Shown here: one piece after another, positions 5,537 through 30,110 of the stretch
How the letters are laid out: each line of letters starts with the position of its first letter
Numbering within the stretch: the first letter of the stretch is position 1
Source: an uncultured Bacteroidales bacterium
GTDB lineage: Bacteria; Bacteroidota; Bacteroidia; Bacteroidales; Paludibacteraceae
Direction: 5' to 3'
Assembly: GCA_902792535.1 (NCBI GenBank)
Contig: CADAZU010000007.1
Span: 69,968 to 106,752 of the forward strand
DNA length: 36,785 bases
The notes under the pieces: generated by a model
The model's input: only the letters and a program-made list of their open reading frames with translations
Database searches by the model: none
Told to the model about the DNA's origin: nothing
Translations under genes and position numbers: made by a program

Positions 5537-5558
5537 TGGTCGCGGAGTGGTCGCGGGC
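5537..5558. repeat. 11-nt direct repeat between polA and the DUF4886 gene
   Basis: Two adjacent units, TGGTCGCGGAG and TGGTCGCGGGC, in the 77-nt spacer. The 11-nt period matches arrays at 2490-2538 and 21271-21388. Confidence 0.6.
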
Positions 5559-21220: not shown

Positions 21221-21245
21221 GTATTATATACATAGTATATAATAC
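21221..21245. repeat. Perfect AT-rich inverted repeat after spmAB
   Basis: Arms GTATTATATAC (21221-21231) and GTATATAATAC (21235-21245) with a three-base loop: 11 perfect base pairs. No T tract follows. It could be an operator, an mRNA 3'-end hairpin or a weak terminator. Confidence 0.7.
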
Positions 21246-21270
21246 CAATAGAATGAAGGAACTGCAATTA

Positions 21271-21388
21271 GTGCGTGATAAGTGCGTGATAAGTGGGAGA
21301 TAAGTGCGAGATAAGTGCGAGATAATCGGGGTAGGTCAAGGGTAGGTCAAGGGTAAATCAATGGTAGCTAACTGACAGATAACTGATA
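21271..21388. repeat. 11-nt tandem arrays filling the spmAB-ybeY gap
   Basis: Five 11-nt units GTGCGTGATAA, GTGCGTGATAA, GTGGGAGATAA, GTGCGAGATAA, GTGCGAGATAA (21271-21325). An 8-nt piece follows, then five more 11-nt units starting GGTCAAGGGTA, GGTCAAGGGTA, AATCAATGGTA (21334-21388). The array ends three bases before the ybeY ATG at 21392. Confidence 0.88.
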
Positions 21389-21391
21389 GAT

Positions 21392-21805
21392 ATGATTACA
21401 TATACCACAGATAGTATAGAAATGCCTGCGCTGGATGAGCGCAAAGTGAACCGCTGGATCAAAGCGGTGGCAGCCGATTATGGCTTCGCAGTCGGCAAAA
21501 TCAACTATATCTTCTGCTCCGACGAGCGGGAGTTGGCGGTCAACCGTGAGTTTCTCGGACATGACTACTACACCGATGTCATCACCTTCGACTACTCCAC
21601 TCCCTCCACGCTCAACGGAGACATCTTCATCTCGCTGGACACCGTACGCTCCAATGCGGAAATGGTCGGCACTTCCTTTGAGAACGAACTACTCCGAATC
21701 CTCATCCACGGTGTGCTCCACCTCACAGGACAAGGGGACAAAACACCCGAAACAAAAGCACAAATGACCGCCAAAGAGGAAAAAGCTTTGGCTATTTACA
21801 AATAA
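21392..21805 (+). CDS. ybeY: Endoribonuclease YbeY (rRNA maturation factor)
   Basis: A 137-residue metal-dependent RNase of 16S rRNA maturation and ribosome quality control. 'YIFCSDERELAVNREFLGHDYYTDVITFDY' and 'GDIFISLDTVRSNA' are typical blocks. The catalytic His motif reads 'HGVLHLTGQGDKTPE': the first two histidines are present, but an Asp stands where many bacteria have the third His. I believe this is usual in Bacteroidetes, but cannot check it here. It lies after a 120-nt tandem-repeat spacer and 53 nt before the pectate lyase gene. Confidence 0.93.
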   Translation: MITYTTDSIEMPALDERKVNRWIKAVAADYGFAVGKINYIFCSDERELAVNREFLGHDYYTDVITFDYSTPSTLNGDIFISLDTVRSNAEMVGTSFENELLRILIHGVLHLTGQGDKTPETKAQMTAKEEKALAIYK

Positions 21806-21858: not shown

Positions 21859-23514
21859 ATGAAACGATTCTTACTCCTCTGCCCGCTGTTTATCGCTGCA
21901 ATGTCCCTTTCTGCCGTAAACTACTGTGCTTCCTCCTCATGGGGCTATGCCGGAACGGCTGTCACCGGAGGCGGCAATGCCACTCCCACATTGGTCAGTT
22001 CCGAGAGCGAGTTGATCTCCGCGCTCAGCAAAAGCAACCGCGTTATTATCATCACGCAGGATATTACCGTCACAAACCATATCAGCACGGACAAGGACAA
22101 CCTGACCATTATGGCGTTGCCGGGAAAGAAGCTGATTTCCAACCAGCAGAACCAATCCAACTCAGGTATTCTATACCTCAAGGGAAACAACCTCCTGCTG
22201 CGCAACCTCACTTTTGAGGGTCCGGGTGCCTATGACTGCGACGGATGGGACAACCTCTGCTTGGACAAAGCCACTAATGTATGGGTGGACCATTGCGATT
22301 TCCAAGACGGTTGCGACGGTAATTTCGATATCAAAGGCACTTCGGACAACATCACCGTCACATGGTGCCGTTTCCGCTATCTCAAAGCGCCCAGAGCAGG
22401 TGGATCCGGTGGAGCGGATGACCACCGTTTCTCCAATCTCATCGGTTCGGGATCCAAAGACAAACCTTCCGATGGCACATACAACGTAACCTATGGTTTC
22501 TGCTGGTGGGACGAGGGCTGCAAGCAGCGCATGACACGTTGCCGCAACTGCGAACTCCATTTCCTCAACTGCTACTGGAACTCCTCTGTAGCGGACTACT
22601 ATGTCGGACCGGAGAACGCCAAATGTTACTTCGAAGGCTGTACCTTTGCCGGAAGTGCCAATAGTGCCTCCAAGATATGGAGTGACTCATACGGAGGCGA
22701 CACGAATCGCTGCACCTTCGTCAACTGCACCGGCAAACTGCCGTCTAACTCCTCCACACCGGTTGCAGCTCCTACTTACACGTACGACCAACTGACCGCC
22801 GCGGTGGCAAAGAACTACGTCACCAACGCTTGCGGAGCAGGTGCCACACTCACAGTCACCAATACCGCCGAGGTTTCTTCTTCATGCGACAGCGAAAAAC
22901 AAGGACAAGGAGGTGAAGGCGGACAAGGACAAGGCGGCGAAGCGACCATCGTAAGCGGAGACTGCTGCGTGGATCTCAGTTTGGGCGAAGAACCATCGGT
23001 CGCCAACGGAGGTATTCCCGCGGAATTCAGCCAACTATCGATAGTGGCATCACTCAACGCCGGCAAAGGTTCCAAATGGGATCAGGGATTTCTGCATATG
23101 GGAGCCAACAGCGACTACATCACCTTCGATTTTTCGGCATACAATGCCACTATTACTGCCGTTTCCTTTGATGTCACCATCCCAACATGGACGGCGACGA
23201 ACAACACGATCGCTTATCATTGGAACACTAACGAAAACAGCAGTTATACTATCTCCAGTGAGGAGAAAGAGACCGTTTCTCTGACCGCTCCCGCGAACGC
23301 CACTTCTTTCACCATCCAGCGTTCCGCCGGCAAGGGCACACGGATCTCCGAAGTATGCTTCACCCTGCAAGCAGCACAAACTCCGGAACCAACAGAAAAT
23401 CTCCTTCCTTCTGCTGAAAAGACCTCCCCCGCACATAAAATAATTCGCGGAGGACAATTACTCATCCTCCGCGATAACAAAGCCTTCAATATCTTAGGCT
23501 CCCGCGTGTATTAA
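21859..23514 (+). CDS. Secreted pectate lyase (PL1 family) with C-terminal extra domain and T9SS-like sorting end
   Basis: A 551-residue protein. A signal peptide (about 1-19) precedes a PL1 right-handed beta-helix catalytic domain (about 24-330). '[23 protein letters not shown]'-type residues (Asp144, Asp148, Asp153) give the calcium site, and '[20 protein letters not shown]' carries the catalytic basic residues. A Gly/Gln linker (348-361) leads to a beta-sandwich-like domain of unknown role (about 365-505). The final 28 residues ('[20 protein letters not shown]' then GSRVY) resemble the conserved end of T9SS cargo, so export by the T9SS encoded here is plausible. It cleaves pectic polygalacturonate by beta-elimination (family knowledge). 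Its stop overlaps that of frdB on the other strand. Confidence 0.86.
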
Positions 23515-24266
23515 TCCTTAAACTTAGCTTTTAAGAATTCGCGGTTCAGTCTTGCTATATTAGCGAGGCTGACGCTCTTCGGGCACTCGGCAGCACAAGC
23601 GCCGGTGTTCGTACAGTTACCGAAACCGAGCTCATCCATCTTAGCCACCATCGCTTTGGCGCGAGCCGCAGCCTCAATCTTGCCTTGCGGCAGAAGAGCC
23701 AACTGGCTGACCTTGGCAGCCACAAACAGCATAGCACTTCCGTTCTTACAAGCCGCAGCGCACGCGCCGCAACCGATACAAGAAGCTGCATCCATTGCTT
23801 CGTCAGCTACGGGCTTCGGAATAGGAATTGCATTTGCGTCAGGCACACCGCCGGTGTTAACACTCACGAATCCGCCGGCCTGCATGATCTTGTCATACGC
23901 ACCGCGATCCACCATCAGGTCTTTGATTACAGGGAACGCACGGCTGCGCCACGGTTCAACGGTGATGGTCTCGCCGTCGTGGAACTTACGCATATGCAGC
24001 TGACAAGTCGTGATCGCGCTGTCTGGTCCGTGCGGGTGACCGTTGACGTACATCGAGCACATACCGCAGATACCCTCGCGGCAATCGTGATCGTACGTCA
24101 CAGGATCCTTGTGCTCGGCGATGAGCTGCTCGTTCAGGATATCAATCATCTCCAGGAACGAAGCGCCTTGGAATACATGTTTCAGCTCATAGGTCTCAAA
24201 ATGACCTTGAGCTTTGGGGCCGGCCTGACGCCATACCCGTACTTTAATATCAATATACTGATCCAT
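23511..24266 (-). CDS. frdB: Fumarate reductase/succinate dehydrogenase iron-sulfur subunit
   Basis: A 251-residue electron-transfer subunit between the flavoprotein and the membrane cytochrome. The plant-type [2Fe-2S] site is '[15 protein letters not shown]'. The [4Fe-4S]/[3Fe-4S] region is '[17 protein letters not shown]' and '[13 protein letters not shown]'. I use the ATG at 24266 ([14 protein letters not shown]); the TTG at 24278 lies in the repeat array between frdA and frdB. This is the third gene of the frdC-frdA-frdB operon. It is convergent with the pectate lyase gene, overlapping it by 4 nt with no terminator between. Confidence 0.96.
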
Positions 24267-24270
24267 ATTA

Positions 24271-24298
24271 ATTGTCAATTATCAATTATCAATTCTTA
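24271..24298. repeat. Heptanucleotide array at the frdA-frdB junction
   Basis: Four 7-nt units: ATTGTCA, ATTATCA, ATTATCA, ATTCTTA. It spans the frdA stop and the spacer before the frdB ATG, and is the same family as the array inside the flippase-like gene (33016-33050). Confidence 0.82.
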
Positions 24299-26412: not shown

Positions 26413-26414
26413 AA

Positions 26415-26446
26415 TTTTCAAATCGTCAAATTTTCAAATCTTCAAA
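26415..26446. repeat. 8-nt array at the frdC-frdA junction
   Basis: Four 8-nt units: TTTTCAAA, TCGTCAAA, TTTTCAAA, TCTTCAAA. It fills the 37-nt gap between the frdC stop and the frdA ATG. Confidence 0.82.
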
Positions 26447-26449
26447 TTC

Positions 26450-28447: not shown

Positions 28448-29113
28448 CTGATCGTTGCTATAGACGGCTATTCGTCGTGCGGCAAATCGACGATCGCCAA
28501 AGCGCTGGCTTCGTACGCCGGCTACACATACGTGGACACGGGCGCTATGTATCGCGCCATCGCTTTATACACGCTCCGCAACAACCTCTGGGACGATGCC
28601 TCAATCATCGCTGCTCTGCCTCAGATAGAGGTCGGCTTTGTGCTCGCAAACGGCGCGCAGCACGTCACCCTCAACGGCGAAGACGTAGAACCCTTCATCC
28701 GCACGCTGGAGGTGGGCAATACCGCCAGCCGCGTTTCGGCAATCAAAGAAGTAAGGGCGTTCCTCGTGGCGCAGCAGCAGAAGATGGGCGTCTCCAAAGG
28801 CATCGTCATGGACGGACGCGACATCGGAACGGTCGTCTTCCCGCAGGCGGAACTAAAACTCTTCCTCACTGCCAGCCCGGAGGTGCGTGCGCAACGGCGC
28901 TTTGACGAACTGGTTGCCAAGGGCGAAAAGCCCGATTTTGCTGCCGTTCTGGCTGACGTGAACGACCGCGACTACCGCGACACCCACCGCGCAGAAAGTC
29001 CGCTCCGCCAAGCCGAAGATGCCATCGTCGTGGACAACAGTTTCATGACCCGCGAACAACAAATGGAACTGATATACAAGTTGTTCAACGATACTCTAGA
29101 TAAACTAGTTTAA
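28418..29113 (+). CDS. cmk: Cytidylate kinase
   Basis: A 231-residue enzyme that phosphorylates CMP and dCMP. The P-loop is 'IDGYSSCGKSTIAKALA'; 'YVDTGAMYRAIALY' and 'IVMDGRDIGTVVFPQAELKLFLTAS' are the nucleotide-binding blocks, and 'RDYRDTHRAESPL' lies in the lid region. The start ATG at 28418 falls in repeat DNA, so the first ten residues are repeat-derived. It lies 12 nt after porQ; its stop is inside a 9-nt array that bridges to ispH. Confidence 0.96.
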   Translation: MVNSKLSNRKLIVAIDGYSSCGKSTIAKALASYAGYTYVDTGAMYRAIALYTLRNNLWDDASIIAALPQIEVGFVLANGAQHVTLNGEDVEPFIRTLEVGNTASRVSAIKEVRAFLVAQQQKMGVSKGIVMDGRDIGTVVFPQAELKLFLTASPEVRAQRRFDELVAKGEKPDFAAVLADVNDRDYRDTHRAESPLRQAEDAIVVDNSFMTREQQMELIYKLFNDTLDKLV

Positions 29114-29158
29114 CTAATTCTACTATATCTACTAGTTATACTAGATTGACTATAATGA
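29096..29158. repeat. 9-nt CTAG array bridging cmk and ispH
   Basis: Seven exact 9-nt steps: CTAGATAAA, CTAGTTTAA, CTAATTCTA, CTATATCTA, CTAGTTATA, CTAGATTGA, CTATAATGA. It contains the cmk stop (29111-29113) and the ispH start ATG (29155). Confidence 0.88.
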
Positions 29159-30072
29159 CGATTTCTATTGATTCCCATAGTGGTTTTTGCTTCGGCGTGA
29201 CGCGCGCGATTGAAGCGGCAGAAAGCGAACTGAACAACGGTCCGCTTTATTGCTTGGGCGACATCGTGCATAACGGACAAGAGGTCAAGCGGCTGGAGAT
29301 CAAAGGCTTACAGACGATCGACTACGACGACTTGCGGACGCTGCCTTCCCATTCGCGCGTGCTCCTTCGGGCGCACGGTGAGCCGCCAAGCACCTATTGG
29401 ATCGCGCAGCAACGGGGCATCGAAATCATCGATGCCACTTGTCCGGTGGTAAAGAAACTCCAAGACCGTATTCGCGCCTGCTACGAAACCCACAAGAACG
29501 ATGAACCGCAACCGCCGCAGATCGTCATTTACGGCAAACCCGGACACGCTGAAGTGATCGGTCTCCAAGGGCAGACCAACAACACCGCCATCGTCATCGA
29601 GTCCGCCGACCAACTCGACCGCCTCGATTTCACGCGACCGATCTATCTCTTCTCGCAAACCACCAAATCCGTCGAAGGTTTCAACGCCCTCGTCGAAGCA
29701 ATCAAATCTCGCCTAAACAAGGTCTCTCCCCTTGTGGGGGAGCCGGAGGGGGTTTCCGCCTCTTTCGAATACCATGACACCATCTGCCGCAATGTAGCAA
29801 ACCGCGTAGCGGAGTTGCAGGCTTTCGCTCGCGCCAACGACATCGTGCTCTTCGTCGGTGGCTCCAAGTCCTCCAATGCGCGCGTTCTATACGAAAAATG
29901 TGTCGAGGCGAACCCCAACACACTTTTCATCTCCTCCCCCGACGAGCTCGAAGAAAAACTTTCAACTTTCAACTTTCAACTTTCAACTCTCAAAGTTGGC
30001 ATCTGCGGCGCCACCTCCACGCCTCTCTGGCTGATGGAACAAGTAAGGGACAAGCTCGCGCTCATCCCTTAA
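29155..30072 (+). CDS. ispH: 4-hydroxy-3-methylbut-2-enyl diphosphate reductase
   Basis: A 305-residue [4Fe-4S] enzyme, the last step of the MEP isoprenoid pathway. The cluster cysteines are Cys12 ('HSGFCFGV'), the Cys in 'DATCPVVKK' and the Cys in 'VGICGATSTP'. 'LLRAHGEPP' and 'GKPGHAEVIG' carry substrate-binding His residues. I use the ATG at 29155; an upstream TTG is in the repeat array. Two repeat-derived insertions are visible: 'NKVSPLVGEPEGVS' before 'FEYHDTICRNVANR', and 'LSTFNFQLSTLK' just before the last cysteine. The product feeds undecaprenyl phosphate, tying it loosely to uppP. Confidence 0.96.
   Translation: MTISIDSHSGFCFGVTRAIEAAESELNNGPLYCLGDIVHNGQEVKRLEIKGLQTIDYDDLRTLPSHSRVLLRAHGEPPSTYWIAQQRGIEIIDATCPVVKKLQDRIRACYETHKNDEPQPPQIVIYGKPGHAEVIGLQGQTNNTAIVIESADQLDRLDFTRPIYLFSQTTKSVEGFNALVEAIKSRLNKVSPLVGEPEGVSASFEYHDTICRNVANRVAELQAFARANDIVLFVGGSKSSNARVLYEKCVEANPNTLFISSPDELEEKLSTFNFQLSTLKVGICGATSTPLWLMEQVRDKLALIP
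29724..29752. repeat. GC-rich inverted-repeat element inserted in ispH
   Basis: CTCCCC (29726-29731) and GGGGAG (29737-29742) form perfect 6-bp arms with loop TTGTG, followed by CCGGAGGGGG. It encodes the extra loop LVGEPEG. It looks like a dispersed palindromic element captured in frame. Confidence 0.58.
29957..29991. repeat. AACTTTC heptanucleotide array inside ispH
   Basis: Four AACTTTC units followed by AACTCTC, in frame, encode residues LSTFNFQLSTL immediately before the third cluster cysteine region. Confidence 0.88.
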
Positions 30073-30075
30073 CCT

Positions 30076-30110
30076 TTGTACATTGTACTTTGTCCCTTGG
30101 TACTTTACCT
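30076..30110. repeat. TTGTACT-type heptanucleotide array at the ispH-malQ junction
   Basis: Five 7-nt units TTGTACA, TTGTACT, TTGTCCC, TTGGTAC, TTTACCT fill the gap between two convergent genes and overlap the malQ stop codon. No terminator hairpin is seen here. Confidence 0.75.

Follow-up and report, generated by a model that had tools for sequence, protein, structure and literature searches.

An intergenic element with an 11-nucleotide step before ybeY, and a separate class of 7- and 8-nucleotide arrays, in an uncultured Bacteroidales bacterium

The heptanucleotide STRR, short tandem repeats of 7 nt that lie between genes, are cyanobacterial and thus belong to a different phylum from the Bacteroidales considered here, and the palindromic elements of Rickettsia occur both between genes and, in frame, inside them. 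A repeat from within the Bacteroidales is BrickBuilt of Porphyromonas gingivalis, a 23-nt minisatellite inside a MITE, of which, according to the accessible part of its description, one strain carries 19 intergenic copies, segments of these having promoter activity (PMC4596501). Direct repeats of the heptamer TAACTGA are recorded, as far as the available portion of the report goes, in Beggiatoaceae, Cyanobacteria and five Bacteroidetes including Paludibacter propionicigenes, where they are intergenic and often stand just before start codons (PMC4679880). REP elements, in the part of their description at hand, have a palindrome of 20-40 bp, one end of which carries the tag GTAG or CGTC (PMC3733652). 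A sequence-only reading of the DNA studied here had considered repeat arrays of its kind to be without description in Bacteroidales, a statement that the BrickBuilt and TAACTGA reports contradict. No description of an 11-nt intergenic element of Bacteroidales was found in the open-licence literature, and the element that we describe is apparently new; dispersed intergenic repeats with tandem units are already known as a kind. Its combination of a palindrome, a near-fixed spacer and an 11-nt step is in neither the BrickBuilt nor the TAACTGA description, as far as the accessible parts of these extend (PMC4596501, PMC4679880).

The window, by which we mean the whole analysed stretch of 36,785 nt, comes from a genome that, judged by FrdA, has assemblies of uncultured Bacteroidales and Paludibacteraceae as its nearest named records; its genes polA, malQ and DUF4886 were named by Pfam. 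Arrays of equal period had been proposed at several of its gene junctions, and when each junction was scored at periods 5-14 against 500 shuffles they turned out to be real, their scores being reached by 0-4 of 500 shuffles, with a weak pair only between polA and DUF4886 (Table 1).

Table 1. Positions of the element before ybeY and of the other arrays in the window
Feature	Position	Strand	Basis or remark
Weak 11-nt pair, polA-DUF4886	5537..5556	-	4/500 shuffles
Element: perfect inverted repeat, 11-bp arms and 3-nt loop, GTATTATATAC-ATA-GTATATAATAC	21221..21245	+	read in window sequence
Element: spacer, 23 nt	21246..21268	+	between palindrome and core
Element: core, five 11-nt units of AGTGCG[T/A]GATA type	21269..21323	+	TRF and register
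Element: tail, locus-private 11-nt arrays, GGGTAGGTCAA type then TAACTGACAGA type, core register kept	21324..21391	+	ends 1 base before ybeY ATG
7-nt array, frdA-frdB (other class)	24266..24294	-	TRF; 0/500 shuffles with gene overlaps, 2/500 without
8-nt array, frdC-frdA, AATCTTCA unit family	26413..26447	-	TRF; 0/500 shuffles
9-nt array, cmk-ispH	29096..29152	+	TRF; 1/500 shuffles
7-nt array (AACTTTC), inside ispH coding sequence	29957..29993	+	TRF
7-nt array, ispH-malQ	30074..30106	+	TRF; 0/500 shuffles

The expected enrichment over shuffled controls is also borne out in a larger sample of the same genome, made up of the window and 20 stretches of contigs C1, C10 and C12 (224 junctions, 40.8 kb): a best periodic score of at least 14 is reached at 52 of the 224 junctions as compared to 0.75 in shuffles, C10 and C12 having been chosen when already known to carry the 11-nt element, of which the sample includes four copies. 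At a score of at least 10, 26 junctions are found for period 7 (1.75 expected from dinucleotide shuffles), 22 for period 8 (0.95), 13 for period 9 (1.9) and 23 for period 11 (1.3), periods 10 (7 junctions, 0.85 expected), 12 (8, 1.4) and 13 (6, 1.25) being weaker. The assignment of the arrays to gene junctions stands in so far as their density per 10 kb is still greater in non-coding DNA than inside genes, but they are not confined there, since at a score of at least 13 period 7 accounts for 18 non-coding and 24 intragenic segments (0.4 expected each) and period 8 for 18 and 7, respectively. In occupying both locations the 7/8-nt class resembles the Rickettsia palindromic elements, whereas the 11-nt class, with 21 non-coding segments and 2 coding ones, is nearly absent from genes. 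Similarly, the view that arrays end at stop or start codons applies to 7/8-nt arrays at upstream stop codons (18 of 31, 9.4 expected); starts show no such excess (7 of 31, again with 9.4 expected). Overall the preference for gene edges is weak (24 of 61 arrays no more than 6 nt from an edge, 17.7 expected). Near-identical pairs of units between arrays, with letter-shuffled units as the reference, number 127 at period 7 (25.2 expected), 62 at period 8 (11.1) and 11 at period 11 (0.0), and the period-9 arrays of this sample show no shared-unit families. Taken together, the arrays do exist and far exceed what chance would give, yet they comprise at least two distinct kinds, namely a 7/8-nt class and an 11-nt element.

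The array of 11-nt units between spmAB and ybeY is indeed present, as had been proposed. TRF reports period-11 stretches at 21270-21325 (5.1 copies), 21329-21367 (3.5) and 21369-21392 (2.2), a single 11-nt register is common to all three and ends one base 5' of the ybeY ATG (21392), and the array scores 5 at period 7 but 62 at period 11, its best period, and none of 500 dinucleotide shuffles attains this 62. With high confidence, positions 21221-21391 are a copy of a dispersed intergenic element in which a palindrome is followed, after a spacer of near-fixed length, by 11-nt core units, usually five, and often by a locus-private 11-nt tail. Like BrickBuilt, this element belongs to the Bacteroidales, has many intergenic copies and has its tandem units flanked by a leader and a tail, a search of its own genome with the array having returned 11 places. 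Unlike BrickBuilt, as far as the available description of the latter goes, it has a period of 11 instead of a 23-nt unit, it has one palindrome on one side of the core at a near-fixed distance where BrickBuilt ends in small inverted repeats, and units of its type are replaced between species whereas BrickBuilt is reported within a species (PMC4596501). The TAACTGA repeats share their period of 7 with the frdA-frdB and ispH-malQ arrays, and hence with the 7/8-nt class of the window; they are made of one fixed heptamer, and no palindrome, spacer or 11-nt step is described for them in the accessible part of the report (PMC4679880). The spmAB-ybeY array has neither the period of 7 nor head-to-tail TAACTGA. 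The heptamer as such is present twice before ybeY, at 21369-21390, the two occurrences being 11 nt apart and within the 11-nt unit. The REP tag GTAG or CGTC is absent beside the window palindrome GTATTATATAC-N3-GTATATAATAC.

Copies with the unit of the window copy, termed family A, were matched in 19 of 61 genomes of the same genus, and 70 of the 85 matches listed were examined. A covariance model run over 160 genomes of the family, with stricter filters by which weak matches can be lost, matched in 9, all of them from this genus (1 of 33 genera), and a pattern too strict for a survey was found across the order in the genome of the window only, of 393. The element has so far been found in this genus only; the exact 18-nt core pattern is in none of the viral contigs checked for carriage by phage. 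The layout is well kept: five core units are present in 56 of the 70 copies, four in 9 and six in 5, 56 of 70 have a perfect inverted repeat whose arms measure 9 bp or more and whose loop measures 3-4 nt, and in 47 of these 56 a spacer of 21-23 nt separates it from the core. A second array with lag 11 follows the core in 19 of 60 tails (shuffles 0.3, maximum 2; next best lag 3). Tail composition appears phase-locked to the core (p about 0.001 from 1000 rotations of 38 tails), an effect given no weight here because residual homology among the tails could cause it. The 3-nt loop of the palindrome occurs in both orientations (ATA/TAT, TAC/GTA; for example L189, L190 and L202), as if its centre flips.

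The element is not tied to one unit. spmB was recognised upstream of ybeY in 26 of 30 genomes, at a distance of 0-5 nt in seven and of at least 22 nt in 19. In 13 of these 19 gaps there is an 11-nt array whose score none of 200 shuffles attains; L055 has a 7-nt array, and five are without an array, although one of the five has a nominal signal that 9 of 200 shuffles equal. The gap in L057, of about 48 nt, holds no array. The 13 arrays are built from at least five units, AGTGCGTGATA, AAGCATAACAT, CCTATGGGTAT, TTAGTAGGTGA and GTTAGATATTA; TTAGTAGGTGA may be a drifted AGTGCGTGATA, and AAGCATAACAT, CCTATGGGTAT and GTTAGATATTA look unrelated by eye. The two alternative ybeY units that were searched in related genomes, TTAGTAGGTGA and CCTATGGGTAT, are both dispersed. 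TTAGTAGGTGA has 7 matches in G026, 7 in G044, 5 in G016, 1 in G043 and 0 in two genomes, and at L229 it sits before a relative of a gene that neighbours a family A copy. CCTATGGGTAT has 30 matches in four genomes (13 in G004, 11 in G041, 3 each in G003 and G030), and among the 20 loci fetched the palindrome is present at 35-37 nt in 17, at exactly 36 nt in 14, and a lag-11 tail in 10; for five of the 20, three of them at ybeY, there is a family A copy that has the same gene as its neighbour, with side and strand agreeing as well. The genome of the window itself also holds two further 11-nt families, B (7 loci) and C (9 places). The places of family C, for instance L243 (G000:C11:57451-57616) and eight more, have a shared CGCTTACTAACC-type leader followed by 3-14 units of AATCACCTA[T/A]G. 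Several gene junctions carry the element in more than one species. The 11-nt step is retained with another unit at the spmB-ybeY junction and likewise in two of the unit families, so that step and layout outlast the word. Such replacement of the word between relatives, with period and layout kept, amounts to a natural experiment in which reading by spacing can be told from reading by sequence. It would be a rather unlikely extension that the genus as a whole uses an 11-nt ruler, constant in step, spacer and number of units, the unit itself being rewritten in concert genome-wide and many loci adding a private array. Equally doubtful is the functional side of this ruler, namely that a multi-subunit machine, Rho or other, would read spacing more than letters, the copies then being scattered termination or insulation modules built from repeats. 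Within family A concerted evolution is slight, identity being 0.89-0.93 within a genome as compared to 0.87 between orthologous sites.

But what could read a step of 11 nt? The step would be the footprint of a multi-subunit nucleic-acid-binding machine, for which we propose Rho. The published rule for Rho sites, in the accessible part of its description, asks for a stretch of 78 nt in which C exceeds G and recurs every 11-13 nt, and for a downstream hairpin as pause (PMC6407284). On its minus strand the core would provide a C every 11 nt and an excess of C over G; a hairpin would come next, some 78 nt from the start of the core, giving the layout of a Rho-dependent terminator or insulator. Core and spacer together measure 76-78 nt in the family A copies with five units and a spacer of 21-23 nt, and end at the palindrome. 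We re-coded the rule (C spacing, C above G and pause hairpin), as distinct from running the published program, and applied it to the same interval on both strands. Of the 70 copies of family A, 67 score on the minus strand, where matched shuffles give 26.2, and 12 on the plus strand, where they give 8.5. Of the 20 loci of the CCTATGGGTAT family, 19 score on the minus strand and 2 on the plus strand (8.4 and 0.4 in shuffles of that interval). Any repeat with a C in its unit, however, satisfies the spacing rule by itself. Among 29 period-11 arrays, four family A copies included, the stronger hairpin is located 3' of the C-rich strand in 12 and 5' in 2, with a tie in 14; no bias of this kind is seen at periods 7 and 8. 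The identity of the element together with function as a Rho site is our best joint explanation, held with somewhat less than even confidence. More tentative still is the function taken by itself, a predicted Rho-utilisation site with a pause hairpin on the minus strand.

Several observations do not fit Rho easily. Rho-dependent terminators are not dispersed repeats. At ybeY the C-rich strand is the antisense strand, and over co-directional cases the sense strand is the C-richer one in five of ten. Against a background of 169 of 310, the next gene in the C-rich direction is co-directional in 9 of 16 arrays of the genome sample, in 3 of 7 family B loci, in 8 of 9 family C places and in 55 of 70 family A copies, and no strand rule valid for all 11-nt arrays was found; nor does their strand skew exceed that of a random 11-mer (0.42 vs 0.43). 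Moreover, the tails of family A lean the opposite way, C exceeding G on the plus strand in 48 of 70. If the Rho reading is true, the spacing rule for Rho sites becomes testable in gut Bacteroidales; if it is false, a gut genus nevertheless has an element, apparently not described before, next to ybeY and other housekeeping genes.

An unlikely alternative, yet the one that survives best, is a selfish, non-autonomous repeat of the BrickBuilt or MITE kind, whose leader, tandem units and tail have spread between genes and been homogenised without a function for the host. Copying or conversion between loci, by which the copies would arise on our main reading as well, has its signs in a 75-nt leader that is 98.7% identical at two non-orthologous junctions in two genomes (L018 in the genome of the window and L218 in G018) and in the genome-wide shared variants of G027 and G035; a selfish repeat would account for both observations, for the matches in merely 19 of 61 genomes and for the presence of an element in G027 at a site where the genome of the window has none. 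It accounts less well for nearly constant unit number and spacer and for sites that are shared over large divergence: nine clusters of family A sites, for which one shared flanking gene was taken to suffice, are common to several genomes, one of them spanning eight. Nor did the sites compared show a duplicated target or a clean empty site, as the flanks of the G027 site do not align and the G059 site is without a flank match in the assembly of the window.

Slightly less probable are phased protein-binding sites in DNA, where a dimer bound to the palindrome and an oligomer bound to the units, which would be spaced by one helical turn, would control the adjacent promoters. The near-fixed spacers of 21-23 nt in family A and 35-37 nt in the CCTATGGGTAT family agree with such sites, as do the palindrome letters conserved in aligned copies and the location of 34 of the 69 family A copies with both neighbours between divergent genes (background 23 of 127). 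Tail units that are private to each locus do not, and some copies have different hairpins behind a promoter-like box; the spacers outside the mode (12, 28, 31 and 38-40 nt) come from 9 copies, too few for a test of helical phasing. The earlier suggestion that the arrays are binding or mRNA-structure elements suits the 11-nt class, with its palindrome, near-fixed spacer and near-fixed unit number, and may hold for it.

We consider it improbable that the element is a multi-copy small RNA or mRNA leader with a promoter, a hairpin and repeated sites for RNA or an RNA-binding protein. In 21 of 70 copies the core is preceded, at a distance of 55-110 nt, by a TAnnTTTG box, many copies having it at about -77 to -82, and this plus-strand box suits a small RNA better than it suits Rho; several copies of one site cluster also lie 5' of the same gene. 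On the other hand, 49 of 70 copies are without the box, on either strand no more than 2 of 70 have a terminator-like hairpin after the core, and in 36 aligned copies no pair of the stem is altered on both sides, a result that is weak either way as variant palindromes are out of register. A search of the window against Rfam at gathering score gave two tRNAs and no match for the element.

Plain slippage, by which local sequence would have been duplicated in steps of 11 (or 7 or 8) nt and kept since junctions tolerate it, is very improbable and already weak for the family A core. In its favour, the ybeY array of G059 is one 11-nt unit longer than that of the window (gap 200 vs 189), family C varies from 3 to 14 units, and, according to the available portion of the TAACTGA report, most genomes have heptamers as their most frequent long repeats (PMC4679880). 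Against it, units are shared at unlinked loci, unit number is near-fixed with position-specific units, and at least five units serve one junction, all with period 11.

The 7/8-nt arrays differ from the element in place and spread. In the genome sample their unit families recur at unlinked loci, with ATTGTCA in 14 arrays, AGCCGTC in 10, AACTTTC in 5 and the period-8 unit AATCTTCA in 11, and they are also found inside housekeeping genes, namely ispH (Table 1), recR (L154:5999-6042) and coaE (L144:17810-17839). The recR array coincides with an 11-residue insertion relative to two solved RecR chains, and that of ispH with a 5-residue insertion relative to two IspH chains; for coaE the structure alignments stop before the array. 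In relatives, the frdC-frdA and frdA-frdB junctions can be plain gaps free of arrays, of 4-36 nt (L058, L059, L061, L062, L064, L065, L067) and of 2-6 nt (L060, L064, L065, L067, L068, L070), and other relatives have 7- or 8-nt arrays there, some in gaps of 158-631 nt and as inverted pairs. The proposal that the arrays are slippage products selected as spacers fits poorly, because units are shared across unlinked loci, 7/8-nt arrays are intragenic too and the frd gaps of several relatives are short and array-free. Arrays of this type are also present at 25 of 102 junctions in Prevotella (2.6 expected), 11 of 109 in Muribaculaceae (1.6) and 7 of 115 in Bacteroides, Parabacteroides and Porphyromonas (1.7). 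The class would be a spreading, lineage-specific repeat, near in kind to the TAACTGA heptamers as far as the accessible part of their description allows the comparison (PMC4679880).

The idea that 7/8-nt arrays serve as arrays of stop codons was rejected: TGA is richer on the sense strand in 13, on the antisense strand in 8 and equal in 10 of 31 arrays of the genome sample, the corresponding figures being 13, 5 and 8 of 26 at genus-like loci and 2, 5 and 5 of 12 in Prevotella, which gives no rule. Inverted pairs of 7/8-nt arrays are present at the frd junctions L059, L061, L080 and L084 and at L103, and their arms could pair into a long hairpin of short units. In the window, frdB and a pectate-lyase-like gene are convergent and their stops overlap by 4 nt (23511-23514), which leaves no space for a terminator between them.
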